A stretch of 40,642 nt of DNA, from NCBI GenBank assembly GCA_903832775.1, contig CAILCX010000142.1, positions 1 through 40,642 on the forward strand, written 5' to 3'. Numbering within the stretch: the first letter of the stretch is position 1; every line of letters starts with the position of its first letter. The notes below the pieces were generated by a model that saw only the letters and a program-made list of their open reading frames with translations, did not search any database and was not told the DNA's origin. Of the stretch, positions 6,901 through 24,918 are shown one piece after another. The translations under genes and the position numbers were made by a program. This DNA is from an uncultured Methylobacter sp. GTDB lineage: Bacteria; Pseudomonadota; Gammaproteobacteria; Methylococcales; Methylomonadaceae.

Positions 6901-6979
6901 CAACTACCGCCAGTAGCACTGATGCGCCAATAATTAACAGGCGTTGCTGTAAACAAAACGCGATGATTTTATGAATCAT
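3911..6979 (-). CDS. czcA: CzcA-type heavy-metal efflux RND transporter
   Basis: Inner-membrane proton/substrate antiporter of a tripartite pump that expels divalent metal cations from periplasm or cytoplasm. 1022 residues, normal for the family. TM1 is at about 12-30. The first large periplasmic loop starts with RLPVQAFPDVQNVFVQV. The TM4 proton-relay motif is IDFGIIVDSAVVLVEA near residue 390. The two halves repeat the RND fold, with a second membrane bundle from about 870. The DFGxxVD form of the relay is that of Co/Zn/Cd/Ni exporters (HME-RND) rather than the monovalent CusA type, so I favour a divalent substrate; the exact metal is not readable. The usual VDGAVV has Ser for Gly and the usual VEN ends in VEA. 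Its ATG overlaps the stop of the adaptor gene by 4 bp. Confidence 0.93.
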   Translation of the reverse strand: MIHKIIAFCLQQRLLIIGASVLLAVVGVISFERLPVQAFPDVQNVFVQVVTQYPGQAPEEVEKLISLPIEKEMNGLPHLINMRSVSIFGLSVVTLTFDDDAEDYFSRQQVLERLRAVSLPSSVSPVLGPLSTGVGEIYRYRIEAPTYPLVEQRAIQDWVIERTLRSVQGVADVVAFGGGVKQYQIEVDPDKLRDYKLTLPDVYQSVASNNANTGGGYIEHGYEALVVRGAGLLKSADEIGNIVISSQDGVPILVKNIANVVIGPQPRNGIVGYNERDDVVEGVVLLIKGRDAIDVLQGVKEKIEGLNGHALPPGVKIVPIYDRTELVQHTVHTVEHNMLEGAALILAILVIFLRRALASAVVITVIPLSLLFAFILIDAEHVSANLISLGAIDFGIIVDSAVVLVEAIMVKVTLEMSQKASVAHMRQSMLMTAVDLARPILFSKAIIIIAFLPIFTFQRVEAKIFSPMAFTLSFALLGSLIISLTLVPVLLSYLIGPRLIESHNPLVDGMEKYYRIILEAVLRHPRKLFISAGLSLALSLGTTLLIGTEFMPKLDEGNIWLTITLPTPVSLAKAKVLEQDIRGRLREFSEAKSILTQLGRPEDGTDPKGFNNLEILIDLKPKETWHYKNKDKLVEAMQKRLAVYPGLQFNFSQVIQDNVEEAISGVKGEIAIKIFGEDLKVLQEKANQITRILRSIEGSTDVAAEQQSGLAQMVIAIDRFKTARYGIDVDDVESVISMAVGGKTATQMLEGERRFDITVRLTGAARDSVGAIEDITVLAPDGSRIPLAELSEIKINQGASRISREDNMRRIAIKCNLIGRDQGSFVAEAQQKVSEQIVLEPGYRVVWSGQFESQQRAMKRLAFIVPISLVLIFILLFWAFQSLKSATLIVMNVPFAMIGGLVALLVTGIHLSVSAAVGFIALFGIAVQNGVILLTQINHLRREGVPLQEAILQGSVSRLRPVVMTALMAILGLIPAAISTSVGSETAKPFAVVIIGGLITATLLTLTMLPALYRHFEEQHET

Positions 6980-8142
6980 GGCTGGCTTTCTCCGCCTTTT
7001 TGTTCGTCCTGTTCAGCATCTTCCTCAGTTCGTAACAGTAATGCGCCATCAATTACCAGGCGCTCTTCAGGCTTCAAGCCTTCAAGAATAACGGCTCTAT
7101 CCTTAAGACGTAAACCAGCTTTGACAGGTCTTTTTTGGTAATGTCCATCACCAATCGCCACGAATAACCAGTCTGATTCATCTTCGGTGAATAGCGCGGT
7201 TAAAGGAACAACTACGGCTTGATCATTGGGTTCGCTTTGCACTTCAGTGGCTGCGTACATGGCAGGCAGAAGGCGGTTATCCGGATTAGGTAAAATGCAA
7301 CGTACTTTAACGGTACGCGTCGCATCTTCGACCACCTGACTTATATAGCTGACGGTTGCGGCAAATATCTCGGCTGGATAAGCTGGCACACGCACAAGAA
7401 CTTTGGCGCCTACATGAATTAAACCGATATCTTTCTCAAAAACAGACATTTGCACCCATAAATTGCTTAGGTCCGATATAACAAATAGTGGCATTATCAA
7501 GTCTGATCTGACTTCCATGCCAGGATTGATATTACGTTCGGTAATCACGCCGGCGATGGGTGAATGCAGGGAAAATCGATTGTCTGTGCGTCCGGTCGGG
7601 GCGCCAAGATTAACTAGCTTGAGTCTTGCTCTTTCGGCCTCACTTCTGGCATGAGTCAGGTTGTCTTGTGCCTGTTCCTGATCTTTACGTGGTGTTATGC
7701 CATTGTCATAAAGCTCCTGCATGCGTTGGAAAGCGCGATCGGCCAAATTCAAATCGGCCAAAGCATCGGCATAATCTGATTGGGCTTGCCCCAGCTCGGG
7801 GCTATCCAGTTGGGCAAGCGCGTCGCCAATATTGACATGTGCGCCCAGTGCGGCGATAGCTCCTGTCACCCGTCCGGCAATAGGTGACGAAACACGCGCT
7901 GTCCAAGCTTCATCATAAGTGAGGGTTGCTGTTACCGGATCCATCAAGGGGCGGCGGACCAAATCAACAATAGCTTCTTTAATATAAGCACGCTTGGGAG
8001 AATTCTGGCTCAGTATCACTTCATTTTTGGATAGCGTCACGACTGGCTTTTGAGGTTCTTTACTTTCCTTCTGGCAAGCCAGTAATGAGAGCCCCAAAAC
8101 TAGAGTGATCAGCCTGGTTTGCTTGAAAAACTGTGTGTTCAT
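6976..8142 (-). CDS. czcB: CzcB-type periplasmic adaptor lipoprotein of the RND pump
   Basis: Membrane-fusion protein linking the RND pump to the outer-membrane channel. I start at the ATG at 8142. It overlaps the upstream stop as ATGA and gives a clean lipoprotein signal ending LGLSLLAC (Cys23). The in-frame ATG at 8184 would bury the signal behind 14 extra residues inside the upstream gene. In order: a barrel-sandwich half (VSSPIAGRVTGAIAALG), an alpha-helical hairpin (about 115-180, rich in Gln/Ala/Arg), the second lipoyl half (FSLHSPIAGVITERNINPG), a beta-barrel domain, and an acidic tail (RTEEDAEQDEQ). No His-rich metal-binding N-terminus is present. 388 residues. Family and complex membership are secure. 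Confidence 0.9.
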   Translation of the reverse strand: MNTQFFKQTRLITLVLGLSLLACQKESKEPQKPVVTLSKNEVILSQNSPKRAYIKEAIVDLVRRPLMDPVTATLTYDEAWTARVSSPIAGRVTGAIAALGAHVNIGDALAQLDSPELGQAQSDYADALADLNLADRAFQRMQELYDNGITPRKDQEQAQDNLTHARSEAERARLKLVNLGAPTGRTDNRFSLHSPIAGVITERNINPGMEVRSDLIMPLFVISDLSNLWVQMSVFEKDIGLIHVGAKVLVRVPAYPAEIFAATVSYISQVVEDATRTVKVRCILPNPDNRLLPAMYAATEVQSEPNDQAVVVPLTALFTEDESDWLFVAIGDGHYQKRPVKAGLRLKDRAVILEGLKPEERLVIDGALLLRTEEDAEQDEQKGGESQP

Positions 8143-9437
8143 GATTTTGCTTCTTCCCCGTAAGCCATTAATAAATCCGCCCAAGCATTGCTACGGTTTG
8201 CCAAGGTGTTGTAATAATCCAGCATCATTGCTTTGTAATTTCGTTCTGCATCTATCAAGTCGAGTAATCCGACCGCTCCTTTCTGATAGGCTATCTCCTG
8301 AGATTTGCGTAACATTTCAATGCGCTTGATCACATCTGATTCAAAGCGTTGCGAGATGGAGTTTGCACTTTGCCAGGCCGATAAGGCTTTCATAATATCT
8401 GTACGAACACCTTGTTCAACCTGGTTTACTGCTAATTCAGAGGTGCGAAGGGCGATGCGTGCTTTAGAAATTTCACCCTCCTGACGATAGAATAAAGGTA
8501 ACGGCACACTGAAGCCTACGCCGTAACTATCAGTGAAAAAATTGCCGGGGTCTCGTTGATAAAACGTATTCACAGTTACGTCGGGAATGGTTAAACGATT
8601 TGCCAATGTCAGCATTTTTTCGGCCTGATCAATGCGGACTCTGGCAGCTTGCAAATCGGGTCTCTTTTCAATCGCTTGGGCAACTAACTGTTCCTGTCCG
8701 GCTTCTGCAATAGTATTGTTCGCTTGTGCCCAGGTTTCTACAGCCCTAATCTCCAGGCTATTATCGGGCCAGCCCAGCAATAACAGCAGATCGGCCCGTG
8801 CCTGATTTAAGGCTCTATTTGCCTGATCCTGATCGGCTTGAGCTTTGAGGCTTTCAACTTCAATTCGTGTAAAATCAGTTACGGCAATATCACCTACCTT
8901 AAGTCTGATTGCATTGACTCGAAGAATTTCACGATAGCGCTCGTAACTTTCAGTTGCTACTTTTAAAGCTTTTTGCGCTAGCAACAGGCTGTAATAACTA
9001 TGCCGTACTGCGTTGGTGAGTAGTCGAGCCGTGTCTTTCAAATCCAGATTTACAGCTTCGGTAGCAAGGCCACTGCTTTCTATACGTAACCTTCGTTTCC
9101 CTGCTGTTTCTATCAATTGCTGAATCTGCGGCGATATGGCAGGCAATGCGTTCACATTGCTATATTGCTGGCGCGACATGATGGGACTCAGAGACGAAAT
9201 GGTAAAAGTGAATACCGGGTTCGGAATAGCCCCTGAAATAATTTCCTGTGCACGAGCATCATCAATATTGAACTGTGCTGCAATCAAGTTGAGGTTGCGT
9301 TGATAGAATAATGCGATAGCCTGCTGCTCAGAAATGTCTAAAGTCCCTGCTTCGGCAGATAATATTTCAGCTCGCGGCGTTATTGTCCATAAAGTAAAAC
9401 ATAGATAGAATAAAGTTTTAACACTTAATATTTTCAT
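8139..9437 (-). CDS. czcC: CzcC-type outer-membrane efflux protein (TolC family)
   Basis: First gene of the efflux operon. It encodes the outer-membrane channel of the CzcCBA complex. 432 residues with an N-terminal Sec signal (TLFYLCFTLWTITPRAE). Two OEP repeats are visible: one starting EQQAIALFYQRNLNLIAAQF, the other around QAIEKRPDLQAARVRIDQAE, the classic RPDLQAA signature. The C-terminal half has the YQKGAVGLLDLIDAERNY signature that closes TolC-type proteins. Its stop codon overlaps the adaptor start by 4 bp, so the three pump genes are translationally coupled. No regulator (CzcR/S, MerR) is adjacent. The promoter should lie in 9438-9660, but I could not place convincing -35/-10 boxes there. 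Confidence 0.9.
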   Translation of the reverse strand: MKILSVKTLFYLCFTLWTITPRAEILSAEAGTLDISEQQAIALFYQRNLNLIAAQFNIDDARAQEIISGAIPNPVFTFTISSLSPIMSRQQYSNVNALPAISPQIQQLIETAGKRRLRIESSGLATEAVNLDLKDTARLLTNAVRHSYYSLLLAQKALKVATESYERYREILRVNAIRLKVGDIAVTDFTRIEVESLKAQADQDQANRALNQARADLLLLLGWPDNSLEIRAVETWAQANNTIAEAGQEQLVAQAIEKRPDLQAARVRIDQAEKMLTLANRLTIPDVTVNTFYQRDPGNFFTDSYGVGFSVPLPLFYRQEGEISKARIALRTSELAVNQVEQGVRTDIMKALSAWQSANSISQRFESDVIKRIEMLRKSQEIAYQKGAVGLLDLIDAERNYKAMMLDYYNTLANRSNAWADLLMAYGEEAKS

Positions 9438-10007: not shown

Positions 10008-13000
10008 GTGGATTCAAATTTTCCTTCCTTGTCTTCAGGTGCGTCGCCAGTTCGGCTACGTGAAATTCCTTATAACTACACCTCTTTTTCAGATCGCGAA
10101 ATTGTTATTCGCCTGTTGGGTGAAGAAAACTGGCTGATTTTGGAATCGCTGCGGGATGAACGCATAACTGGCCGTTCTGCAAGGATGCTGTTTGAGGTTC
10201 TGGGTGATATTTGGGCCGTGCAGCGTAATCCATATCTCGAAGATGATTTGCTCGATAACCGTAAACGTCGTAAAGCACTGCTGGAAGCATTGCGACATCG
10301 TCTTGGACAGATGAGGAAACGCGATAGTGACTATGAAGACGAACATCCCGATCGCACCCGACGAGTTGAGCTGTTAATTGATGCGGCACATCAGGCAGTC
10401 AATGCCTTTGAAGCGCATTTTGTACGCACTCGTGAAATGCGCAAAAAAGTATTAGCGTTATTAAGCAAACATACCCGCAAAGACAATATCTGCTTTGACG
10501 GGTTTGCTCGCGTTTCTCATGTTACCGACGCGACTGACTGGCGGGTGGAATATCCGTTTGTGGTTCTTTATCCATGTACTGAAGATGAAGTGGGTCATTT
10601 GGTGCGCGACTGCATAAAGTTGGGGTTGACGATTATTCCTCGTGGCGGAGGTACCGGCTATACAGGCGGTGCCGTCCCATTAACGATCAATTCAGCCGTT
10701 ATCAACACTGAAAAACTGATTGTTATCGGTCCCGTGGAACATGAAGCCAGTTTGCCTGGAATCGAACAGACCTACGCAACCATCCATACCGGTGCCGGTG
10801 TTGTCACGCGTCGAGTCATGGATGTCGCTGACAATGCCGGACTGGTTTTCGCCTGCGATCCTACGTCAGCCGATGCGTCATGCATAGGCGGCAATGTAGC
10901 GATGAATGCAGGCGGTAAAAAAGCCGTGCTGTGGGGAACCGCGCTCGACAATCTTGCGTCCTGGCGCATGGTAACGCCTGATGGTAACTGGTTGGAAGTT
11001 GAGCGTATCAACCATAATCTCGGCAAAATACACGATCAGGATCAAGTCAATTTTTTATTGAAACGTTTTGACGCGAAAGGTCAAACCTTACTTTCCGAAG
11101 AGCCGCTGGTCATTCCGGGCACACATTTTCGCAAAGGCGAATTGGGCAAGGATGTGACCGACAAATTTTTGGGCGGTTTACCGGGCATCCAAAAAGAAGG
11201 TTGCGACGGTATTATTACCTCGGCGCGCTGGATTTTGCATAAGATGCCGGCTTTTACACGTACTTTCTGCCTGGAATTTTATGGGCAAGTTCGCGAGGCA
11301 GTTCCAGCCATTGTCGAGATTCGCGATTATCTGGCAGCCTTACCCAAAAGCGGCGAAACACGCGTTTTGCTGGCCGGCCTTGAGCATCTTGACGAACGTT
11401 ACGTCAAAGCCGTAGGTTATGCCAGTAAAGCAAAGCAGCACGGTTTGCCTAAAATGGTACTGATCGGAGACATTGTCGGCGATGACGACAAACAAGTCGC
11501 TTTGGCCGCTTCGGAAGTTGTGCGCTTGTGTAATGCCCGCAAAGCAGAAGGTTTTATCGCGGTCAGTCCTGAAACCCGTAAGACTTTCTGGCTGGATCGT
11601 GCGCGCACTGCAGCTATCGCCAAACATACCAATGCCTTTAAAATCAATGAAGACGTGGTTATTCCATTGCCGCGCATGGGCGATTATTGTGACAATATTG
11701 AACGCATCAATATCGAATTATCGTTACGAAACAAGTTGCGTTTATGTTATGCGTTAAGTCATTTTCTGGAAGGTGACCTGCCTTTACGTTCTTATGAAGA
11801 CAGCGTTAACTCCAGTGATCTGATTGGTGATCGTCGCGACCAGGCTTTAGCTGTTTTGGATCAAGTGCGCGAACGCTGGCAGTGGCTGTACGACAATCTC
11901 GATTTACCGTTGCAAGAGGCTGAAGACGCTTTCGATGACTACGAGATTACCGTCAGTGAGTTCACCAATCGCGCGGAACAACCTACTTTGTTTCATCGTT
12001 TACAAGATCATTCGCTACGTGTCTCCTGGAAATTGGAGTTACAACCACGCTTAAAAGAAATTTTTGTGGGTGATAATTTTCGCCAAGTAGTTGAGCGTAT
12101 CGACGCCGTTCATAAAGAGATTCTGCGTGGTCGTGTTTTTGTGGCTTTGCACATGCATGCTGGCGACGGCAATGTTCACACCAATTTGCCGGTTAACTCC
12201 GATCATTACGAAATGCTTCAGGAAGCCAATATCGCTGTGGCTCGTATTATGGCTTTGGCGCGTTCTTTGGGCGGTGTAATCTCTGGCGAACACGGCATCG
12301 GTATTACCAAATACGAATTTTTAAGCGCTGAAGAGCTTGCCAGTTTTCACGCGTACAAAGAGCGCGTCGATCCCGAAGGTCGTTTCAATCGTGGCATGCT
12401 GATGCCGGGTTCTGACATGAGCAAGGCTTACACAACTTCGTTTAGTCTGATGGGTTATGAATCACTTATCATGCAACAAAGCGACATTGGTGCAATCTCG
12501 GATTCCATCAAAGATTGTTTGCGCTGTGGTAAATGCAAGCCTGTGTGTTCGACACACGTGCCACGTGCCAACTTGTTATATTCACCACGTAATAAAATTT
12601 TGGCTACATCTTTGCTGATCGAAGCCTTTCTTTATGAAGAACAGACTCGACGCGGTATTTCCATCACCCACTGGAAAGAATTTGAAGACGTGGCCGATCA
12701 TTGCACCGTGTGTCATAAGTGTTTTAATCCTTGTCCGGTCGATATTGACTTTGGTGATGTGTCGATGAATATGCGTAATCTGTTGCGCAAGATGGGAAAG
12801 CAGAGTTTTAATCCCGTAAAATCAGCGGCGATATTGTTTCTCTCTACCAGTCGTCCCAATAGTATCAAGATCATGCGCAAGTTATTGATCGAATGGTCTT
12901 ATAAAGCACAGAGACTGGGTAATATTTTTCTCAGACCCTGGGGGCGTCAGCAGGTGGCACAGCCGCCGTCTTCGACTGGCAAACCGGCATTGCGGGAATA

Positions 13001-13919
13001 TGTTATTCATTTCACTAACAAGAAAATGCCTGATGACGTGCCATCCAAAACTGCTAGAGCTTTATTGGATGTCGAGAGCGATCAGATTGTGCCCATAATC
13101 CGCGACCGAAATAAAACCCGCGCCGATTCTGAAGCGGTGTTTTATTTTCCGGGTTGCGGCTCAGAGCGCTTGTTTTCACAAGTGGGCTTGGCGACTCAAG
13201 CCATGCTATATGAAATAGGCGTGCAAACTGTCTTGCCGCCGGGTTATTTGTGCTGTGGCTATCCGCAGCGTGCAGCAGGTCAATTTGATAAAGCCCAAAA
13301 AATCACTACGGATAATCGTGTGTTATTTCACCGGGTTGCAAATACCTTGAATTATCTGGATATTAAAACCGTTGTCGTCAGTTGCGGTACTTGTCTGGAT
13401 CAGTTAGTCGATTACGAATTCGAAAAGATTTTTCCGGGCTGCCGGATGATTGATATTCACGAGTATCTGCTCGAAAAAGGCGTAAAACTGGAGGGCGTTA
13501 ACGGCAGTCGTTATTTGTATCATGATCCTTGTCATAGCCCTTTAAAATTGCAGGATCCGATGAAAACGGTCAATGATTTGATGGGTACGTCGGTTGCTAA
13601 ATCAGAGCGTTGCTGCGGTGAGTCAGGTACCTTAGCCGTTGGGCGCCCTGATATTTCAACGCAAGTGCGCTTTCGTAAGACGAGCGAATTGCAGGAAGAT
13701 GCATCCAAACTGCGTGCCGATGGTTTTGATGGGCCGATTAAAATGCTGACTTCCTGCCCGTCTTGCGTCCAAGGTTTGCAGCGTTACAAAGGTGATGTAG
13801 AGCAACTGGAGGTTGATTACATTGTTGTCGAAATTGCACGTCATGTCTTGGGTAAAGACTGGATGAAAACCTATATCAAGCAAGCTTCAAACGGCGGTAT
13901 CGAGCGAGTTTTGTTGTAG
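10008..13919 (+). CDS. DUF3683-type FAD-linked oxidase / Fe-S dehydrogenase (D-lactate or 2-hydroxyacid type)
   Basis: A single 1303-residue polypeptide that joins parts often split into subunits. Residues 1-140 are a DUF3683-like head ([20 protein letters not shown]). A PCMH FAD-binding domain follows at about 180-370 ([17 protein letters not shown]). The FAD-linked oxidase C-domain runs to about 800 ([30 protein letters not shown]). Two 4Fe-4S cysteine sets are [11 protein letters not shown] at about 837 and [12 protein letters not shown] at about 899. Two CCG domains of the heterodisulfide-reductase/glycolate-oxidase type are at about 1045-1085 ([15 protein letters not shown]) and about 1173-1205 (HDPCHSP, CCGESG). 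Relatives oxidise D-2-hydroxyacids and feed electrons to the respiratory chain; the actual substrate is unknown. No signal peptide, so cytoplasmic, possibly membrane-associated. The start is GTG with a weak ribosome site, chosen because the family-like head begins there. Confidence 0.85.
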
Positions 13920-13924
13920 TAAAG

Positions 13925-13953
13925 TGGCCAGGCATACCTTGTATGCCTGGCCA
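13925..13953. terminator. Strong hairpin downstream of the dehydrogenase gene
   Basis: TGGCCAGGCATA and TATGCCTGGCCA form a perfect 12-bp stem around a 5-base loop (CCTTG), five bases after the stop codon. The T-run is weak (TTCCTTGATTTT), so it is a probable, possibly bidirectional, transcription terminator. A minus-strand ORF ends 20 bp further on. Confidence 0.7.
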
Positions 13954-13971
13954 TTCCTTGATTTTAAAGCC

Positions 13972-14715: not shown

Positions 14716-14886
14716 ATGAATAAAAATATATTTATATCAGGATTGTCTTTGACAATGCTAGTTTGGCTATGGTTTGGTTGCGAAGTGAATGCTGCGAATA
14801 CCTCCTCTAATAATCTTGAAATAGCTATCGAGACCGATTCTATGTTTGGGGATTACATCTTCTTTGACATGGTTTTCCCTGCTTAA
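14716..14886 (+). CDS. Small secreted protein or truncated leader gene upstream of the oxidase
   Basis: 56 codons starting at an ATG preceded by GAAGG about 9 bases upstream. The N-terminus is a good Sec signal: MNKN, a hydrophobic stretch IFISGLSLTMLVWLWFG, and a cleavage site after EVNA. About 29 mature residues remain. After the TAA the same frame is open again for 43 codons, up to 15016-15018, immediately before the oxidase ATG. This might be a nonsense mutation in a 100-residue protein, or chance in AT-rich DNA. It is in the same direction as the oxidase, 134 bp upstream. Family not recognised. Confidence 0.4.
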   Translation: MNKNIFISGLSLTMLVWLWFGCEVNAANTSSNNLEIAIETDSMFGDYIFFDMVFPA

Positions 14887-15020: not shown

Positions 15021-18000
15021 ATGAATGAAATCAATATTTTTAATCGTACACGAATGTCGATGGCGATTTTGTTGGCACTATCCCCTGTGGCGTTACAAAT
15101 GGCACATGCCGGCGCCGGATTTGGCGATAATACCAGCAGTGTCGGGACTCCAATCAAGGTGCCGACTTTTTATGCCAACAGCCCGTCCGGACTGCGGCCG
15201 GCGGATGACTGTTTTGATACCACCGGAGCAGCGGCCGTTCCAACGCTAAAGGGTCTTTGTGACACTGGTACGCCACTGCAGAAATTTGTCGATACTCTGC
15301 CGGGTCTGGGGTCCTCTGCCGCCAACGATCTCGGTCAGTACATTCCCATCGCGGTCCCGGACACAACTTCTTATCCAGGTTCGGACTACTATGAAATTGC
15401 CGTAGTCGATTATACCGAGAAGATGCATAAAGACTTAGTCAAAGCGACTCATTTGCGCGGTTATGTACAATTGTCCACGGCAATTGTACCCGGAAAAAAA
15501 GTTTCTCTTGCTGTCAAACTCCCCGACGGTACAACAGAAGCCCTTGCCGTTGATAATCCCCATTACCTTGGCCCACTGATTATGGCCACAAAAGGACGGG
15601 CGGTACGTATTAAATATTACAATCTGCTACCCACCGGCGCTGCGGGCAAGCTATTTCTTCCGGTTGATGCAACCTATACCGAAGCGGGTATCCTTCCAGG
15701 TAACGTTAGCAAGTTAACCGAAAACCGCGCCGCCATACATTGGCATGGCGGCGATACTCCGTGGATTAGCGATGGTACGCCGCACCAGTGGATTGCTCCG
15801 GCCACTGAGGTCATTCCCGGTACAACCATTCCTATGGGCAAGGGTGTCAGCGCCGAGCCGGTTCCTGATATGCCGGCTCCGGGTGCTGGCGCACAGACGC
15901 TGTATTTCCCCAACAATATGAGCGGTCGGTTCATGTTCTATCATGACCACACCGCTGGATTGACCCGACTTAACGTCTATGCTGGTATTGCCGCCGGTTA
16001 TTTGCTTACCGATCCGACTGAAACCTCCATGGTGAATGGTACGATTGCGACACCACTTTTAGATTCTACTGGCGCTTCCCAAAAAGATGCGGCTGGCAAA
16101 GTCATCAGTTTTGCAGCCGGCACCTTGCCCGCCGACCAAATCCCTCTGGTTATCCAGGACAAAACCTTTGTGCCCAAAGACATAGCGCAACAGGATTCCT
16201 ACTGGAATCAGGATATTACTGGTAATAAGAACTTGACAGTTTGGGGCTCGGAAGCTGATTTGTGGTTCCCGCATGTCTATGAAACCAACCAAGATCCGTC
16301 TTCCTTGGATGCTACCAATCCGGTTGGCCGTTGGGACTGGGGTCCGTGGTTCTGGCCGGTATTCCCCGCTGCGTACTCGCTACCTTCTGGTTTAGTGGGT
16401 GATGCAAGCAGCACGCCGGAAGCCTTTATGGATACCCCTATCGTCAACGGCACCGCTTATCCCACAACCACAGTACAGCCAAAGGCTTACCGTTTCCGTA
16501 TCCTGAATGCCTCTAATGATCGATTCCTTAACCTGGGCCTGTATCAGGCTACGACTGGCGTATCCCAGATCGCTATATCTGCTAACGGAAGTGGTTACTC
16601 CACTGATCCTCGCTTCCCGCCAAAAGTCGTCATCACGAATGCTGCTGGCGATACCACTGGCCATGGCGCAACGGCGGTTGCAACCGTTGATCCGGGGACA
16701 GGAAGTATTACCCGCATAGACATGACCAATGTAGGCGCCGATTACACTGCACCCGTTTCTTTGTCGGTCTTAGATAACATCTATGTTGCTGATACTACAA
16801 AAACGCCTGCCGTTGTTGCCCATGCAGCCCCAGGTGGTTTTGATTTCGCAGCCTCAGGCAGCATTACTATGGATCAAACCGAAGTCGAGATGGTGGCGTT
16901 CGATGCGACGCAGGCTGCCAAGACTCCATTTCCGACCAGCGGCGGCCTGCAAGGCACTGGCTGGGGAACCCTCGACTCCATGCAGCATCCGTCCGGTGTA
17001 CCCAACCCAACCAAGTTGGGGCCGGACATCATCCAAATCGGTACTGAAGGCGGCTTCCTACCTCACGCCGTGACGATACCTTCCACACCAATCAACTACG
17101 AGTACAACAAGCGCAGCGTTACCGTGCTTAACGTACTGGAACACGGCGTGTGGATGGGACCTGCGGAACGTGTTGACGCGGTCATAGACTTTTCGCAATA
17201 CGCAGGCAAGACGTTGATTCTGTACAACGATGCTCCTGCACCACTGCCAGCAGGCGACCCGCGTATCGACTACTACTCGGGCGCCCCGGATCAAACTGGT
17301 GCGGGTGGTGCTGCTCCGACTTTGGCGGGTTACGGCCCGAATACCAGGACCATTATGCAAATTAAGGTCAGCAGTGGTACACCTAAACCTTTCGACGTAG
17401 TTTCTTTGCAAGCAGCACTGCCTAAAGCCTACGCAGTGGAACAGGTCCCGCCCGTCATTCCTGAAATCGCCTATAACGACGCTTTCGGCACCCATGACGC
17501 CGACAACCTGCTCAAGATCTCCACCGGTTCTATGGCCCAACCCACCCTCAACTTTACTCCGACTGGCCCGATGACCTTGACAGGCGTCAATCTGCAGGGC
17601 GGTGGTACCGGGTATAGAGCGGCTCCTACTGTAACATTTGTTAATGGACTTGGTGCAGCTACTACTGCGTGTCCTATCCCTAGGGCGGCCACTGCGAAGG
17701 CGACCATCGATTTAGGTACGCGCATGGTCACTGGCTTTACCAGCTTTAATGCTGGCTGTGGCTACACCTCAATGCCCACCGTGCAACTTACTGCAACCAA
17801 TGGCGGCACCGGCGCGACAGCCAATGGTGTGTCCAACACCACCAAAACCCTACCGGTCCAGAACAAGGGCATCCAGGAGTTGTTTGATCCGGTCTATGGC
17901 CGCATGAATGCCACCTTCAGCGTCGAATTACCGTTCACCACCGCGACAACCCAGACAACGATTCCGTTGGCCTATATCGATCCGGCCACCGAGAAGATTG

Positions 18001-19745
18001 CTGATGGCGAGACCCAGATCTGGAAGATTACCCATAACGGCGTAGACAGCCATCCGGTGCATTTTCACCTGGTGAATGTACAGGTGATTAACCGCGTTGG
18101 CTGGGACGGCACCATCAAGCCACCTTACGACAATGAGTTCGGCTGGAAGGAAACCCTGCGTATGAATCCGTTGGAAGACGTCTATGTTGCCGCTACCGCG
18201 AAACAACCAAAGACCAATTCTTTCGGCCTGCCGCAAAGCGTGCGTTTGCGGGATCCGTCGCAGAAAGCGGACGCCAACTTGGGCTTCACCCAGATCAATC
18301 CGGTTACCGGTGCTCCCGCTACTGTGGTCAATACTGTTGATAACTACAACAATGAGTATGTCTGGCACTGTCATATCTTGGGCCATGAAGAGAATGACTT
18401 CATGCGTCCGGTAGTGTTTCAGCCGCGTAGTTTTGATTCTGTTGCAAATGCCTGGAAGACGACGCTGGATGCACCTGCGGCGCCGACGCTCCGTTTGACT
18501 AGTGGCGTCCTCAACTGGGTTGACAATTCCGACAAGGAAATCCAATTTAACATCGAACGTGCGCCACTAACTAATGGAGCAACAGGTACCTTTGCAAATG
18601 TTGGCATCGCTTTGGCTAACGCCGGTATGCAAAGTTGGATCTCACCGGTCTCAGGCGTAGGAAAAAATGCTGGTATAATCACCGACGCCACTAGGGTAAC
18701 CGGCCAATCTTACCAGTACCGCGTGGCGGCGGTGGGCGCGGCAGCAACGGGTGCATCGGTCATCGATACGACAACATTATCCTACTCGAATGTCGTCACT
18801 TTTGATGTTGCCCCATTAGCACCGACCTCGCTGACGTTAACCCCCGGGACATGTAGCAGTGCAACCAGCTGTCCGGTAGCGCTGAGTTGGCCAGACTCCT
18901 CCACTAATGAAACTGGATTTGTTGTGGAATACGGCATTGGTGCTACACCAGCTACGTGGACTTCGGCGACAGTCACCATAAGTGGCACGACTACTCGTTC
19001 TGCAACAGTCACTGGTCTGAACGCTTCGACCCAATATTCCTTTCGGGTAAGTGCAGTCAATAGTGCGGCGGTTGCTGGTAAAGCAGGTTCGTTTGTGACC
19101 AAATCGGCTACGACGAATGGTTATGCAGTGGTGCAAACAGCCCCTGCGACTCCAAGCGGTGTATCGATTAAACGGACCAGCATCACGGCAGCGACCTTAG
19201 CCTGGACTGATGCTTCAAACAATGAGACGAGCTTTCAGGTGCAGACTTCATCGGCTACAGGCACTCCAACGTGGACTAACCTCGACGTGGCGATTGCACG
19301 CAATGCGGCTCAGGGTATGGCCACAGGTGGCGGTTTGACTTACGCTGCGGCGGTGACAGCCTCGACCAACTTGTTGTACCGGGTGGAGGCGCTCAATGCG
19401 AGTCCTACTGGGGGCATCTCGGCTTCGGTTACCTTAAATGATACGGTTGCACCGGTGGCTGCCACAGGGGTAACTGGAACCACGACAACATTGAAATTCT
19501 TTGGTTTTACTGTAAGCACTACGGTCACGCTGAACTGGGCTGATGCAGCTAACAATAATGTGAGTTACACGTTCCAGCGCAGCACCAATAACGGTTCGAC
19601 GTGGACGAACGTAAGTACGACTCTTGGGGCCAATGTTACTTCGACATCGCAAACTGTTGGAGGCGCAATCAGCAAAAACCAGTTTCGGGTTCTAGCGGTC
19701 AACTCGGTCGGCTCAACTGCATCTGCTGTTTACACTACACCGTAA
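15021..19745 (+). CDS. Giant secreted multicopper oxidase with fibronectin III tail (MofA/OmpB type)
   Basis: 1574 residues. The Sec signal ends near residue 30 (MAHA/GAG). All four copper-binding segments are present: HWH at 240-242, HDH at 308-310, HPVHFH at 1011-1016, and HCHILGHEENDFM at 1116-1128. C1117 is the type-1 cysteine, and the usual axial position (five after H1122) holds F1127. Two inserted Gly/Tyr/Pro beta repeats interrupt the cupredoxin domains: about 513-595 (GSGYSTDPRFPPKVVI) and about 852-935 (GTGYRAAPTVTFV, then CGYTSMPTVQL). Residues from about 1150 hold about four fibronectin type III-like units (VALSWPDSSTNETGFVVEYG, ATLAWTDASNNETSFQVQ). This size and plan match Leptothrix MofA (Mn oxidation) and Geobacter OmpB (Fe(III) reduction). 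The FKBP and cytochrome c genes downstream support the Mof comparison. Periplasmic or exported; the substrate is inferred, not shown. Confidence 0.87.
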   Translation: MNEINIFNRTRMSMAILLALSPVALQMAHAGAGFGDNTSSVGTPIKVPTFYANSPSGLRPADDCFDTTGAAAVPTLKGLCDTGTPLQKFVDTLPGLGSSAANDLGQYIPIAVPDTTSYPGSDYYEIAVVDYTEKMHKDLVKATHLRGYVQLSTAIVPGKKVSLAVKLPDGTTEALAVDNPHYLGPLIMATKGRAVRIKYYNLLPTGAAGKLFLPVDATYTEAGILPGNVSKLTENRAAIHWHGGDTPWISDGTPHQWIAPATEVIPGTTIPMGKGVSAEPVPDMPAPGAGAQTLYFPNNMSGRFMFYHDHTAGLTRLNVYAGIAAGYLLTDPTETSMVNGTIATPLLDSTGASQKDAAGKVISFAAGTLPADQIPLVIQDKTFVPKDIAQQDSYWNQDITGNKNLTVWGSEADLWFPHVYETNQDPSSLDATNPVGRWDWGPWFWPVFPAAYSLPSGLVGDASSTPEAFMDTPIVNGTAYPTTTVQPKAYRFRILNASNDRFLNLGLYQATTGVSQIAISANGSGYSTDPRFPPKVVITNAAGDTTGHGATAVATVDPGTGSITRIDMTNVGADYTAPVSLSVLDNIYVADTTKTPAVVAHAAPGGFDFAASGSITMDQTEVEMVAFDATQAAKTPFPTSGGLQGTGWGTLDSMQHPSGVPNPTKLGPDIIQIGTEGGFLPHAVTIPSTPINYEYNKRSVTVLNVLEHGVWMGPAERVDAVIDFSQYAGKTLILYNDAPAPLPAGDPRIDYYSGAPDQTGAGGAAPTLAGYGPNTRTIMQIKVSSGTPKPFDVVSLQAALPKAYAVEQVPPVIPEIAYNDAFGTHDADNLLKISTGSMAQPTLNFTPTGPMTLTGVNLQGGGTGYRAAPTVTFVNGLGAATTACPIPRAATAKATIDLGTRMVTGFTSFNAGCGYTSMPTVQLTATNGGTGATANGVSNTTKTLPVQNKGIQELFDPVYGRMNATFSVELPFTTATTQTTIPLAYIDPATEKIADGETQIWKITHNGVDSHPVHFHLVNVQVINRVGWDGTIKPPYDNEFGWKETLRMNPLEDVYVAATAKQPKTNSFGLPQSVRLRDPSQKADANLGFTQINPVTGAPATVVNTVDNYNNEYVWHCHILGHEENDFMRPVVFQPRSFDSVANAWKTTLDAPAAPTLRLTSGVLNWVDNSDKEIQFNIERAPLTNGATGTFANVGIALANAGMQSWISPVSGVGKNAGIITDATRVTGQSYQYRVAAVGAAATGASVIDTTTLSYSNVVTFDVAPLAPTSLTLTPGTCSSATSCPVALSWPDSSTNETGFVVEYGIGATPATWTSATVTISGTTTRSATVTGLNASTQYSFRVSAVNSAAVAGKAGSFVTKSATTNGYAVVQTAPATPSGVSIKRTSITAATLAWTDASNNETSFQVQTSSATGTPTWTNLDVAIARNAAQGMATGGGLTYAAAVTASTNLLYRVEALNASPTGGISASVTLNDTVAPVAATGVTGTTTTLKFFGFTVSTTVTLNWADAANNNVSYTFQRSTNNGSTWTNVSTTLGANVTSTSQTVGGAISKNQFRVLAVNSVGSTASAVYTTP

Positions 19746-19918
19746 GTAAAGCAGGTTGGGTTGCTTCTTTCCCTCGATATGCATTAGGTGGGCAGGCGTC
19801 GCGCAACCCTTGCTTCAAAGCTTCCTCATCCCTGCAATCTCGGGGTGGGGGCCTTAGAAGCCTATGGCTAAGTATCACCAACCGATTAAATTAACTAAAT
19901 CACTACAGGATTTAAATC

Positions 19919-20455
19919 ATGAACAAAAAATTACAACAACTAGCGGGCGCCGCCGTCTTATTGCTGGCGACAACTTCAATTAATGCCTTACCGATAGTGT
20001 TGCCGGATCCGGCTAACAGTTCCAGCGAAACAGGCACCTTCAGTATTGATGCTCATGACAGAATTAATATGACCGGCAATCCGATCAGCTTAACAACATC
20101 CTTACCTGTTAAAGGCAGTCATATTGCCAATGGCGATGGCCGATTTAAAAATGGCGTTATCCAGTATAAAGGATCCGCCAATTTTGATGGCGATATAGCC
20201 AAAGTGACACTTGGCAAGGATTTGCGTAAGGGCATGGTCGTTTATACCTTAAAAGGTTTGGTTTACGGCAAATTAGACAATGCTGGCGAACAGTCTGATG
20301 TCAGCGGAAATTTTGGGGTGACCACCAAGCCCGCACCGGAAGGCACTGCACTGAATAATGCTCAGGTAGAATCCAGCCACTTGGTACTGACGCCGCGTTC
20401 TAATGTAAATAATGTCAATCCATCCAACGCTGATAGTAAAAAAACTAAACGCTGA
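19919..20455 (+). CDS. Small secreted protein of unknown function in the oxidase cluster
   Basis: 178 residues. The Sec signal is clear (KLQQLAGAAVLLLATTSINA/LP). The mature part is beta-rich: GTFSIDAHDRINMTGNPIS, GDGRFKNGVIQYKGSANF, GMVVYTLKGLVYGKLDNAG. It ends in a Ser/Thr/Asn-rich, basic tail (NADSKKTKR). It has no cysteine, no metal-binding histidine cluster and no membrane anchor, so it is probably a soluble periplasmic or exported protein. It lies 173 bp after the oxidase and 209 bp before the FKBP gene, same strand, with AGGAT upstream of the ATG. I know no family for it. Its position suggests an accessory role in the oxidase system. Confidence 0.7.
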   Translation: MNKKLQQLAGAAVLLLATTSINALPIVLPDPANSSSETGTFSIDAHDRINMTGNPISLTTSLPVKGSHIANGDGRFKNGVIQYKGSANFDGDIAKVTLGKDLRKGMVVYTLKGLVYGKLDNAGEQSDVSGNFGVTTKPAPEGTALNNAQVESSHLVLTPRSNVNNVNPSNADSKKTKR

Positions 20456-20664
20456 GAGGTCATTTCCATTAAGAGTAAGTAACAAGTAGTCAGTATGGAG
20501 ATCAGCGGTATAAGGGGCATCGGAAACGCGGATTCCAAAAAACTTCATCCAGGCTACTTGCTTTGCTTAAGGTATAGCGCTTCATTTTATTGCCCACTCC
20601 TGAACAGTGTGAGCAGAAATGACTGTCATATGTAAACCTATTTATAGCTTGATGGGAGGCTATT

Positions 20665-21369
20665 TTGTACGTTAAAAATTTAAGTGTATTTTTCTTAGTC
20701 ATGCTTTTAGCGCAGCAAGCTGTCGCTGAAAAACAACCTGTATTGGTCAATGGTTTCAAATCCGAAAATGATGCCACCAGCTACGCTATAGGCGCATCAG
20801 TCGGGAGAAATTTCAAAAAAGATGATTTTACAGTTAACTCGAAACTTTTTATTCAGGGTTTTGAGAATGGCTTGTCTGGCGCAAAACTTAAAATGTCGGA
20901 ACAGGAGTTTAAATTGATATTGTCGAATATCCAGGTTGAGATGCGAAGTAAGATGGCAGGCAATAGGAGAGACAAAGGTCTGCAAAACAAAAATAAGGAA
21001 GCGGCTTTTCTTGCTGAAAATGCCAAGAAAACAGATGTGGTTAGCTTGCCTAGCGGCGTCCAATATAAAGTATTAAAAGCGGGAAATGGTTCAAAGCCGA
21101 TGGATTCTGATTTTGTCGAAGTGAACTACCGGGGCACGCTGTTGGATGGCACTGAGTTTGATGCCAGCTTACCTGGTAAGCCGGTCAATCTTAAACTGGC
21201 ACAATTAATTTCCGGTTGGAAAGAGGCAATTAAATTAATGTCAACAGGTTCCAAATGGCAGCTTTATATTCCGTCAAGGCATGCTTATTCTGAAAAAGGC
21301 GTGGGTAACGATATTGGTCCCAATGAAATGCTGATATTCGAGGTTGAATTGGCAGGTATTAATAAATAG
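20665..21369 (+). CDS. Exported FKBP-type peptidyl-prolyl isomerase (FkpA/MIP-like; MofB-like position)
   Basis: 234 residues starting at TTG, with GGGAGG 6 bases upstream deciding the start. The Sec signal is SVFFLVMLLAQQAVA. Residues 30-115 form the N-terminal helical dimerisation domain typical of FkpA/MIP (ATSYAIGASVGRNFKKDDF, MSEQEFKLILSNIQVEMRS). The FKBP domain follows at about 125-233: SGVQYKVLKAGNGSKP, VEVNYRGTLLDGTEFDAS, ISGWKEAIKLMSTGSKW, and PNEMLIFEVELAGI. It should catalyse proline isomerisation and act as a periplasmic folding helper. It is the third gene of the cluster and probably assists the oxidase or cytochrome. In Leptothrix the gene after mofA is also an FKBP-type isomerase. 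Confidence 0.88.
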   Translation: MYVKNLSVFFLVMLLAQQAVAEKQPVLVNGFKSENDATSYAIGASVGRNFKKDDFTVNSKLFIQGFENGLSGAKLKMSEQEFKLILSNIQVEMRSKMAGNRRDKGLQNKNKEAAFLAENAKKTDVVSLPSGVQYKVLKAGNGSKPMDSDFVEVNYRGTLLDGTEFDASLPGKPVNLKLAQLISGWKEAIKLMSTGSKWQLYIPSRHAYSEKGVGNDIGPNEMLIFEVELAGINK

Positions 21370-21470
21370 CTGTCGATGAAGATTTTAAGTTGCTTGAAAG
21401 CGATAGCGTTCGATCAAGGAATGTTATCGTTCCTCAACAACATTGATAGTTAAAAAAGCTTAAGGAGTTT

Positions 21471-23192
21471 ATGATGTTAGAAAGTTATTTGCCTTTTTTA
21501 ATCTCCAGGTCTCGCTGTTTTGTTGTATCGTTGGCCTTGCTAGCTTGTGCTCCTTGCCAGGTATGGGCCGATAACGCGGCTCTTGTTGAGCAAGGACGCC
21601 TTATTTACGAGAAAGGCATTATTGGATCAGGCAAGCAGTTGGAAGGCTGGCGCGCGGACAATAACAAAATTGCAGGAAACGAGGCTGCCTGTGTTTCATG
21701 TCATCGACCCAGTGGCATGGGGTCAGTCGAAGGAGATATTTTAGTGGCGCCGATCACCGGCAATTATCTGTTTAACCCGGATAAAGTCCAGCTCGCCAAC
21801 ATGGATCCCCGTAGTGGTAAAAAATTTAATCAAACACATCCTGCTTATACTGAAGCCAGCTTGGCCACAACACTGGTAAGCGGCATGGATAATCAGGGGC
21901 GCACATTGTTTCCGTTAATGCCCCGGTATTATCTTGCGACCAATGATATGGCGGCACTTTCGGCGTATTTGAAACAGCTTTCAATAGCCTGGTCACCCGG
22001 TGTTGATACAGAGACCCTCCATCTGGCAACCGTTATAACACCGGAAGTTGAACCGGAGCGCAGGAAAGCATTTCTGGATACTTTGCACACGGCGGTAAAA
22101 CATAAAAACGGTAATACCTCGACGGCTGCCAATAAAAAGGGCCGCCGTCACATGACTTCAGCTGCGGAAATGGTGTTAGGTACTGAGCGTAAATGGGATC
22201 TGCAAGTCTGGGAGTTGCAAGGAACCCCTGATACCTGGAATGCCCAATTAACTGAAAAATACAAATCCCATCCCGTATTTGCGGTGGTGTCGGGGGTGTC
22301 AAATGCGGACTGGGAACCGGTACATGATTTCTGCGAGAGCAATCATGTACCGGGTTGGTTTCCAAGCGTGATTTTACCGGTAACGACGGGGTCTTTTTAC
22401 TCTTTGTATTTCTCAAAAGGCGTGATTTTGGAAGCTGAGGTATTGGCCAATCAGCTCAAACAGGTTGTAAAGCCAAAACGGCTTGTTCAAATTTTCAGTA
22501 ATGACCCCGTCGCAAAAGTAGCGGCAAAGAACTTGCGTGATGCATTAGCCAAGACTGGCATTGCTTTAGAAGAGCGAGTCGTCAAAGAAGGCGTGGCGAT
22601 TTCAGCCCAGTTGCCCGGCGATTTGACCAACAAAGATGTGGTGATGTTTTGGCTGCGAGATAACGACCTGATTAATTTTGATAATTCGTTACCGCCTAAG
22701 GTTAAGGCATTATATTTTTCCAGTGAATTGGCTGGGAGAACCTTATTGCCAGAAGCTTGGCGACAAAATGCGCAGTTGCTTTATCCTTACCAATTACCTG
22801 ATCAGCGTCAATCCAATTTAACCAATTTTCATGCCTGGCTGGCTATGAATAAACTACCGATAGTAGATGAGTCGTTGCAAGCGGAGGCTTTTTTTGCGGT
22901 GGAATTTTTGACCGAAACGGTGTCTGAAATGCTGGATAATCTTTATCGGGATTATCTTGTAGAAAGAGCCGAAGCCATGTTGAGTCGAAGTGAGTCCATA
23001 AAATCAGAACAACAGGTTCGTGAACGGCAAATAAGAGGTAAAACAGGTCCATTAATTCAGCAACATAGCACCAGCATTTACCCGCATCTGGGTTTAGGCA
23101 TTGGCCAACGATTTGCGTCCAAAGGCGCTTATCTGGTCCATTACGACAAAGATGCAAAGTTGCAGGCCAAATCGGATTGGATCGTGCCGTGA
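21471..23192 (+). CDS. c-type cytochrome fused to a periplasmic-binding-protein-like domain (MofC-like position)
   Basis: 573 residues with a Sec signal ending near QVWA. Residues about 35-175 form a monohaem cytochrome c domain. The haem motif is CVSCH at 74-78, followed by RPSGMGS. A likely axial methionine is in GRTLFPLMPRYY near 149, and the helix MAALSAYLKQLS closes the domain. From about 185 to the end it resembles a type I periplasmic binding protein: HPVFAVVSGVSNADWEPVHD, VPGWFPSVILP, RLVQIFSNDPVAKVAAKNLR. The C-terminal part (MLSRSESIKSEQQVRERQ, YPHLGLGIGQRF) is unassigned. AAGGAG precedes two adjacent ATGs; the second (21474) has better spacing. It is an electron-transfer partner candidate for the oxidase. 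101 bp downstream of the FKBP gene. Confidence 0.82.
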   Translation: MMLESYLPFLISRSRCFVVSLALLACAPCQVWADNAALVEQGRLIYEKGIIGSGKQLEGWRADNNKIAGNEAACVSCHRPSGMGSVEGDILVAPITGNYLFNPDKVQLANMDPRSGKKFNQTHPAYTEASLATTLVSGMDNQGRTLFPLMPRYYLATNDMAALSAYLKQLSIAWSPGVDTETLHLATVITPEVEPERRKAFLDTLHTAVKHKNGNTSTAANKKGRRHMTSAAEMVLGTERKWDLQVWELQGTPDTWNAQLTEKYKSHPVFAVVSGVSNADWEPVHDFCESNHVPGWFPSVILPVTTGSFYSLYFSKGVILEAEVLANQLKQVVKPKRLVQIFSNDPVAKVAAKNLRDALAKTGIALEERVVKEGVAISAQLPGDLTNKDVVMFWLRDNDLINFDNSLPPKVKALYFSSELAGRTLLPEAWRQNAQLLYPYQLPDQRQSNLTNFHAWLAMNKLPIVDESLQAEAFFAVEFLTETVSEMLDNLYRDYLVERAEAMLSRSESIKSEQQVRERQIRGKTGPLIQQHSTSIYPHLGLGIGQRFASKGAYLVHYDKDAKLQAKSDWIVP

Positions 23193-23351
23193 TGAATGTA
23201 ACCTGATTGCTCAATTTAATTTAGTTTTTTAGATCCTTCGTTTTGAAAAAGGCGAGACCAACAATTACAACACTAGTTTCGGAAATATTGAGTGACAAAC
23301 AAAATAACAATACAACTCACGATTATTAAACTATTTATACTCGAGACTAAA

Positions 23352-24115
23352 ATGATGAAACAACAAATCCTTAAAGTTGACTTATTTTTCAAGAAGAACC
23401 TAAACTATTTACGTTGGTCTAATACAGTTACAGCTCAGGACATTCTCAGCCGTATCTTGCGATATGGCAAAAAAATTATCACTATTGGCAGTGCATTGCT
23501 GGCGATAACGCTGTCCGCCCCTGTTTTTGCCAGTCCCTTGTATTCTCAGCCTCCAACAGGTACAGGTATCAGCAATTCATTTGTAACAACCGATCCTAAT
23601 AGCTCTGAATTCGATACTTGGACTTATGATAATTTTGCAGCTACACAGTCCGGTGCTGCTTCCAACATCAGTTGGGAGGGACAAGCCAGTCTTAATACCG
23701 GATTTACTATCCAAATATTGACTGCACAACCTACTACGCCAGATAGTCCAGTCTCTAGCCAAGTCGTCCGGAAAATCAATGTGCCGAATAACTATAGTCA
23801 GGTAGCAAACATTAACGGATGGTCTGATTTTCAGATGGATTTAACAACATCCTTTAGTTGACGGCTGGCACCCAATACTGGTTAACCATCTACTCGACTG
23901 GTACCTTGGAATGGGGTTGGCAAAATGGAACGGGCGGTGACAACCTGTCTAGTCGTTATAATAGAGGTCAATCCCAGTGGTTGCAGGCACCGGGCAACCG
24001 TGCCTTTTCCTTTAATAGTGCCGTGCCATTACCAAGTGCTGTTTGGATTTTTGGTACTGGCTTGATGAGTCTACTTGCATTTAATAAACGTAAAAATAAC
24101 ACAGCTATCTTTTAA
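23352..24115 (+). pseudogene. Secreted protein with VPLP-type sorting signal, disrupted by a frameshift
   Basis: The first frame runs from ATG 23352 to a TGA at 23859-23861. The homology continues one base out of frame to 24115. Compared with the paralogue 400 bp downstream (PFAMIAGTHYWLT), this copy reads TSFS then TAGTQYWLT, which one missing base between AGT and TGACG explains. The shared start MMKQQ supports ATG 23352 over the in-frame GTG 23292. After a 35-residue leader comes a signal sequence (IGSALLAITLSAPVFA). The mature part has SNSFVTTDP, DTWTYDNFAATQSGA and TGFTIQILTAQP. The C-terminus is VPLPSAVWIFGTGLMSLLAF plus NKRK, a PEP-CTERM-like sorting signal. Function unknown. A sequencing error is possible. 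Confidence 0.65.
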
Positions 24116-24130: not shown

Positions 24131-24168
24131 CTGATTGCGTTGTGGATTTTTCGTGGCGCATCAGTTTT
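24131..24168 (+). terminator. Possible terminator after the sorting-signal protein
   Basis: CTGATTGCG (24131-24139) and CGCATCAG (24157-24164) pair with one bulged base around a 17-base loop, followed by TTTTAATTG. The stem is moderate and the loop large, so support is limited. Confidence 0.35.
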
Positions 24169-24234: not shown

Positions 24235-24918
24235 ATGATGAAACAACAAAAAATGGAAGTTGCCTTCTGCAATGGGTATTACAAAAATAATTTGTCTTGG
24301 ACATCAATAATCATAGTACAGCAATCGCTGGTGACCATAATAGGAATATTGCAAATTGGAAAAAAGCTAGCTGTTCTAGGGGGGGTCCTATCGGCATTGA
24401 CGCAGTCAAGTCCGATATTTGCTGGTTCAGTGTACGCACAGCTACCTCTAGACACAACTACCAGCAACTCATTTGTTACGACCGATCCTGATGGCTCTGA
24501 TGGTGATACCTGGACTTATGATGATTTTATTGCCACGCAGTCCGGCGCTGTTTCTAACGTTACCTGGCAGGGACAAGCTAACCCCAATACCGGATTCACC
24601 ATCCAAATTTTAACTGCGCAACCTTCTACTCCAGATACCATTGGTCCCAGTCAAGTCGTAGAGACGATTAATGTGCTAGATAATGCCAGTCAGATAGCAA
24701 ATAAAAACGGATTGTTTGATTTCCACATAGATTTAACAAAACCCTTTGCGATGATTGCTGGCACTCATTATTGGCTTACCGTTTATTCCAATGGACCAGT
24801 GCCCTGGGGATGGGGAAATGGCAAGGGTGCCAACAACAAATCGATCAGTTTTAATAGAGGCCAAGCCATGTGGTTACCTGCGCCTGGCGATCGAACCTTC
24901 TCCCTAAACTATCAATGA
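24235..24918 (+). CDS. Paralogous secreted protein lacking the C-terminal sorting signal
   Basis: 227 residues, paralogous along its whole length to the frameshifted gene upstream. It has the same MMKQQ start, a signal region (GKKLAVLGGVLSALTQSS then PIFAGS), SNSFVTTDPDGSDGDTWTYD, TGFTIQILTAQPSTPDT, AGTHYWLTVYSNGPVPWG, and RGQAMWLPAPGDRTFSLN. It then stops at TGA where the paralogue has the VPLP membrane/sorting segment. Either it is released as a soluble protein, or the 3' end was lost. The end of the convergent permease gene lies only one base away, which suits a deletion. Tandem duplication is likely. Function unknown; no enzymatic motif seen. Confidence 0.6.
   Translation: MMKQQKMEVAFCNGYYKNNLSWTSIIIVQQSLVTIIGILQIGKKLAVLGGVLSALTQSSPIFAGSVYAQLPLDTTTSNSFVTTDPDGSDGDTWTYDDFIATQSGAVSNVTWQGQANPNTGFTIQILTAQPSTPDTIGPSQVVETINVLDNASQIANKNGLFDFHIDLTKPFAMIAGTHYWLTVYSNGPVPWGWGNGKGANNKSISFNRGQAMWLPAPGDRTFSLNYQ

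Follow-up and report, generated by a model that had tools for sequence, protein, structure and literature searches.

What a giant copper oxidase and its putatively exported companions might do in a methane-oxidizing bacterium is the question raised by a 40,642 nucleotide (nt) stretch of the uncultured Methylobacter sp. contig CAILCX010000142.1 (GCA_903832775.1, forward strand), which was analysed whole and is called the window below. Between positions 15021 and 23192, four open reading frames (ORFs) follow one another on the plus strand and encode the oxidase, a 178-amino-acid (aa) protein, an FKBP isomerase and a cytochrome c. Judged by its genes, the locus is a member of the published mof cluster type, which in sheath-forming rust bacteria has been linked to the oxidation of manganese or iron; here it is found in a methanotroph, since the host genome carries PmoA. 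Our best guess, to which we give a probability of about 0.6, is that the oxidase of this mof cluster is placed at the cell surface and oxidizes Mn(II) or Fe(II) with O2.

The oxidase among its relatives and neighbours

To place the oxidase, we searched with an alignment of its core, obtained 433 relatives and kept the best 80 named loci. A quick tree of 98 rows, rooted on Escherichia coli CueO, holds 78 of these loci, 15 other loci and the window; L193 was admitted to it despite lacking copper motif I. Of the further loci kept out of it, L050 and L095 duplicate L117 and L115, and the remainder lacked a usable full-length oxidase frame or were not entered; the two named loci left outside (L146 and L190, without a copper motif in one frame) are counted, unplaced, among the 'others' of the neighbour survey below. 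The window oxidase falls inside a clade of 28 rows in this tree (Shimodaira-Hasegawa-like approximate likelihood ratio test, SH-aLRT, 99) and inside a clade of 20 rows (support 100/99) in a more careful tree of 41 rows, hand-chosen from the 98 and built without an outgroup. The clade includes Ferriphaselus sp. R-1 (L135) and Ca. Ferrigenium straubiae KS03 (L185), the latter of which we take to be the Gallionellaceae organism of culture KS. MofA homologues have been named in Ferriphaselus R-1 and in the Gallionellaceae of culture KS (PMC5566968; this and the other papers cited by accession are drawn on in part). With these two as proxies (Leptothrix MofA itself, OmpB and MnxG are outside the set), both trees place the window copy with published MofA homologues, the grouping on which the original prediction of a mofABC-like locus had depended.

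Conservation of the neighbours was surveyed at the 80 named loci, fetched by the oxidase alone and comprising 21 clade loci and 59 others. A same-strand FKBP gene is present at 17 of the 21 clade loci and 12 of the 59 others, and a MofC gene at 13 and 6 respectively (Fisher tests over all 80 loci, 1.4e-6 for FKBP and 8.4e-6 for MofC, kinship of loci uncorrected). Among loci with at least 5 kb of downstream sequence, the counts become 12/12 versus 9/38 for FKBP and 10/12 versus 3/38 for MofC, and Geomonas accounts for both clade loci that lack MofC, its FKBP gene preceding the oxidase. The linkage of FKBP and cytochrome to the oxidase is thus kept in relatives within the MofA-type clade, as had been foreseen, and together with the clade placement it supports homology with mofABC. 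The gene set recurs in identical order in other genomes, which is beyond chance. The host genome has just five FKBP_C genes in 3.86 Mb, two of them at oxidase/MofC loci, so that by our own arithmetic a 20-kb stretch would contain one by chance in about 3% of cases.

As for the individual proteins, the isomerase matches FKBP_C (E-value 1.2e-26) and FKBP_N (7e-23) and lies 3' of the oxidase on the same strand, as expected of MofB. ORFs and Pfam matches agree with the original description of a 1574-residue oxidase with a fibronectin part, an FKBP isomerase and a cytochrome running in one direction, the export signals of all four proteins having been judged by eye rather than with a prediction program. 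Elsewhere in the host, contig C18 has the row oxidase, HDOD, FKBP, MofC, SCO1, and contig C23 has oxidase and MofC. FKBP and MofC therefore also stand beside an oxidase with a Met at its axial copper position (C18), which takes their linkage beyond the MofA clade. HDOD was considered as a further conserved partner and rejected: such genes follow the C18 oxidase and flank the C116 oxidase on both sides (host loci L011, L012), but among the compared loci they adjoin the oxidase solely in the host genome, with 0 of the 80 named loci having one on the oxidase strand. The window has an HDOD gene of its own (997-2166, by Pfam), 49% identical to the C18 copy.

Copper site, partner proteins and function

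The oxidase matches Cu-oxidase_2 (3.7e-9) and a single fn3 domain (1.3e-7, residues 1278-1349, in the C-terminal part), and it keeps all four copper motifs of the multicopper oxidase superfamily in their order. From these intact motifs we argue that the enzyme would reduce O2. Five giant oxidases, the window copy included, are encoded in the host genome (215 contigs), and they differ at the type-1 axial position (Cys + 10): Phe in the window, Leu on C23, and Met on C7, C18 and C116. In laccases, the potential of the type-1 copper is higher with an axial Phe and lower with an axial Met. The window clade of the 41-row tree has Phe throughout, save for C23 and its relative L060 (both Leu), and the three Met paralogues fall in a different clade.

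The oxidase gene has a G + C content (GC) of 0.535 (0.54 at third codon positions), against 0.385-0.481 for the other window genes measured. This excess is by itself no sign of recent transfer, because the C18 paralogue is likewise high (0.516); no plasmid relatives of the oxidase were matched at an E-value of 1e-20. At the end of contig C116 (L012, 16756-17208), a 150-aa frame resembles, by eye, the tail of a further tandem giant oxidase; it had no match at 1e-5 to the reference set, C18 oxidase included.

The 573-aa protein matches Cytochrom_C (2.9e-6) and, at 24.5 bits and so under the cut-off of 31.7, Peripla_BP_6 (2.7e-5). It carries one CxxCH motif, of which both Cys and the His are invariant in 11 aligned homologues. 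Its structural model (predicted local distance difference test, pLDDT, 64.6) matches type-1 periplasmic-binding folds with a best E-value of 4.8e-7, although among the 50 matches listed the target-normalised template-modelling score is at most 0.52 and the root-mean-square deviation about 6 Å and up. A periplasmic-binding domain is a trait of MofC-like proteins (PMC5566968). The original prediction of an exported c-type cytochrome was right as to a one-haem cytochrome c and incomplete in missing the periplasmic-binding domain to which it is fused.

SCO1-type genes are frequent companions of MofC. After removal of duplicate loci, 37 of 56 MofC genes have one no more than 2.5 kb away, as do 34 of the 45 that are uncut by a contig end; the host C18 locus has one (SCO1-SenC confirmed by Pfam), and in Ferriphaselus R-1 one precedes the oxidase. 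They are nevertheless not universal in mof clusters, being present at 7 of the 21 loci in the clade and at 7 of the 59 outside it, and absent within 2.5 kb of MofC at the window, at C23 and at nine other uncut MofC genes. Pairs of MofC and SCO1 also occur beside other large proteins, which combine Cu-oxidase_3 with cadherin-like matches in two of the four scanned (L059, L063) and gave no copper-oxidase match in the large exported proteins scanned at L105 and L106, in agreement with a remark on S. lithotrophicus in PMC5566968. Because SCO1 adjoins MofC also where the large neighbour is of another kind, we favour for the two a general role alongside copper oxidases outside the cell, be it as redox partner or in maturing the enzyme. 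Distant MofC genes in other genomes adjoin clusters of large exported proteins at L059, L063, L064, L105 and L106.

In the mechanism that we propose, the giant oxidase would be exported, with FKBP assisting its folding, and would act at or beyond the outer membrane using O2. Mn(II), Fe(II) or a similar small donor would pass electrons to a type-1 copper presumably of high potential, given its axial Phe, and the trinuclear copper site would reduce O2 to water. The MofC fusion would be the periplasmic partner, either carrying electrons between oxidase and respiratory chain or loading copper alongside a SCO1-type chaperone whose gene lies elsewhere in the genome, and the 178-aa protein may be a dedicated small exported accessory. 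MofA is counted among the known Mn oxidases, with no action on iron known for it (PMC13386937).

Several points weigh against the proposal of a surface Mn(II) or Fe(II) oxidase. No SCO1-type gene was detected anywhere in the window. The cluster is patchily distributed, with MofC-like proteins in 19 of the 151 genomes of the host order (host included, some matches weak or partial) and in none of nine other genomes of the same genus; the class gave 17 of 369, host included. Such a distribution suggests an accessory trait. (An order-wide oxidase search, positive in 36 of 151 genomes with at most three candidates scored in each, also matches ordinary multicopper oxidases and was not used for counts.) Gene content and the Mn-oxidation phenotype of hosts disagree (PMC13386937), it has been called unclear whether the MofA substrate is Fe or Mn (PMC11412304), and the roles of MofA, B and C have been called unproven (PMC5566968). 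Laccase-like or cuprous oxidation would leave identical marks in the sequence, and the role of MofC may be non-catalytic.

Among the alternatives, a possible though clearly less probable one is that MofC and SCO1 act as a pair in maturing extracellular multicopper oxidases and do not carry electrons for the metal reaction, with FKBP as a third maturation factor. The frequency of SCO1-type genes near MofC, other oxidase classes included, is what this would lead one to expect; the uncut MofC genes without a nearby SCO1, those of the window and C23 among them, are not, and copper loading needs no haem domain. Rather doubtful, in our view, is a laccase or cuprous oxidase acting on phenols, humics or Cu(I) outside the cell of a methanotroph with a high copper demand, the MofC domain then sensing or binding an organic ligand. 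The closest solved relatives are indeed CotA laccases, several aromatic-acid-binding proteins (4ey3, 4f8j, 4q6w) are among the 50 fold matches listed for MofC, and the host has a particulate methane monooxygenase (PmoA), a copper enzyme. The nearest clade members with published notes, however, are iron oxidizers (PMC5566968), and FKBP and MofC are linked here as in the mof cluster type.

We regard as unlikely an outward path like that of OmpB, in which the respiratory chain would deliver electrons by way of MofC and then the oxidase to Fe(III) or Mn(IV) minerals. The fn3 domain and the MofC-like neighbour recall the OmpB cluster (PMC5566968), and the Geomonas oxidases (L133, L136) lie inside the window clade. 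Yet the Geobacter-type group (L144, L148, L157, L166, L194; GSU1394 itself is not among the rows), which has an axial Phe too, lies outside it, the Fe(III)-binding EXXE motif is absent (0 in 1574 residues versus about 0.8 expected by chance), all four copper motifs are kept, fitting O2 reduction, and a locus with FKBP and no detected SCO1 is the reverse of the published Geobacter sulfurreducens cluster (PMC5566968). OmpB membership was dropped on the missing motif and the separate grouping of the Geobacter-type oxidases, and these make the OmpB side of the original prediction its weaker one. A chance neighbourhood of four unrelated exported proteins, to which spacers wide for an operon might point, is ruled out by the neighbour survey, since the same gene order is found in many genomes and the 178-aa gene, present in 3 of 151 genomes of the order, is always in this place.

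Layout of the cluster and its accessory genes

The four genes are likely to form a single transcript, a prediction made because the spacers between them are 173, 209 and 101 nt, and the cluster probably extends past mofC to about position 24918 (Table 1). Terminator-like hairpins in the window number 11, against 12.4 expected from shuffles. A small exported ORF upstream of the oxidase, present in some relatives, was rejected as a conserved part: the 56-aa ORF of the window (14716-14886) matched none of those compared at an E-value of 0.01. Further upstream on the opposite strand lies a resistance-nodulation-division-type efflux set of pump, membrane-fusion and outer-membrane protein (3911-9437), whose substrate may be a metal, and between it and the oxidase a 1303-aa FAD-oxidase/Fe-S/CCG fusion with DUF3683 and DUF3400 (10008-13919).

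Table 1. Features of the mof-type cluster and its surroundings in the window.
Feature	Position	Strand	Basis
MofA-type giant multicopper oxidase, 1574 aa	15021..19745	+	ORF; Pfam; trees; export signal by eye
Copper motif I HWHGG, residues 240-244	15738..15752	+	motif scan
Copper motif II FYHDH, residues 306-310	15936..15950	+	motif scan
Copper motif III HPVHFH, residues 1011-1016	18051..18068	+	motif scan
Copper motif IV HCHILGHEENDF, from residue 1116; final codon is type-1 axial Phe 1127	18366..18401	+	motif scan, alignment
178-aa beta-rich protein, putatively exported	19919..20455	+	Pfam, fold and homologue searches
MofB-type FKBP peptidyl-prolyl isomerase, 234 aa, TTG start, putatively exported	20665..21369	+	Pfam, neighbour survey
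MofC-type one-haem cytochrome c / type-1 periplasmic-binding fusion, 573 aa	21471..23192	+	Pfam, alignment, fold match
Haem motif CVSCH, residues 74-78 of MofC-type protein	21690..21704	+	alignment
Second exported family, copy 1, two overlapping frames (23292-23861, 23858-24115)	23292..24115	+	homologue comparison
Second exported family, copy 2, 227 aa, DUF7901 match slightly under cut-off	24235..24918	+	Pfam
Terminator-like hairpin, 15 pairs, 5' of cluster	13923..13955	+	hairpin scan
Terminator-like hairpin, 11 pairs, 3' of second-family copy 1	24136..24160	+	hairpin scan

Two extra exported protein families appear to be tied to the mof cluster. The first is that of the 178-aa protein, the additional secreted member of the set that the original prediction had pointed out; the ORF is present, with an export signal by eye, and no Pfam family matched it. 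Its model, built from three sequences, is of moderate confidence (pLDDT 63) and has no fold match at an E-value of 0.001 or better. All three genomes of the order that have the family carry it at a mof locus (the wider class was not searched), and among the named loci it occurs at L115 and L145. The second family, a probable accessory of the cluster, lies beyond mofC and is found nowhere else in the host genome. It occurs at five of the 80 named loci (four of the 21 in the clade and one of the 59 outside), and in Ferriphaselus R-1 and L118 it stands between FKBP and MofC. By eye, the short tail that closes copy 1 resembles a sorting signal of the PEP-CTERM type; copy 2 is without such a tail.

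Our literature search of open-licence papers found no report, among the matches listed, of mof genes in a methanotroph, and the parts drawn on of a paper on extracellular electron transfer in Methylobacter (PMC13322032) mention neither multicopper oxidase nor OmpB nor mof. If Mn(II) or Fe(II) is indeed oxidized, methane oxidizers would have a direct share in the Mn and Fe cycles, a matter of interest for sand filters, lake sediments and methanotrophs that form sheaths. With Phe, Leu and Met enzymes side by side in a single genome, the question of the MofA substrate becomes testable by comparison of paralogues, and the 178-aa protein, like the second family, offers a new handle on mof accessory parts of no known function. 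A broader scheme, which we put forward as improbable speculation, is that the five giant extracellular oxidases are graded by axial residue for donors of different potential at the methane/oxygen boundary, Mn(II) being taken by the Phe enzyme, with the 178-aa and second families as dedicated new mof parts and MofC with SCO1 as a general pair.

Comparison with known systems

The CotA laccase of Bacillus (PDB 1gsk) shares the copper motifs and is matched at 5.1e-52 with the family profile and at 2.6e-32 with the window protein alone. It has 513 residues and an axial Met, which aligns with the Phe of the window oxidase and sets the latter apart from CotA-type laccases; the window oxidase also differs in its fn3 domain, its long insertions and the linked FKBP and MofC genes. 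With the OmpB cluster of G. sulfurreducens (PMC5566968) the window has in common a giant exported fn3 oxidase and a MofC-like neighbour, but it is without EXXE, has FKBP and no detected SCO1, and the Geobacter-type oxidases form a separate group.

The closest likeness is to mofABC itself. Such clusters, some with extra genes, have been described in the Gallionellaceae of culture KS, in Ferriphaselus R-1 and in L. cholodnii (PMC5566968), and Rubrivivax A210 has a five-gene mof operon with a metallochaperone and an exported unknown (PMC8218464), so the suggestion that such modules usually go unrecognized in annotation holds only in part. In Leptothrix discophora SS-1, Ferriphaselus R-1, culture KS, L. 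cholodnii SP-6 and Rubrivivax A210, as here, a giant exported oxidase is followed on the same strand by FKBP and a cytochrome c/periplasmic-binding protein. The window oxidase falls in one clade with the Ferriphaselus and KS copies, those of Leptothrix and A210 being outside the sequences compared, and the exported unknown of A210 may be a member of one of the two window families. What distinguishes the window from these clusters is its methanotroph host, a locus at which no SCO1-type gene was detected, the 178-aa gene that separates oxidase from FKBP, and the second exported family that follows mofC.

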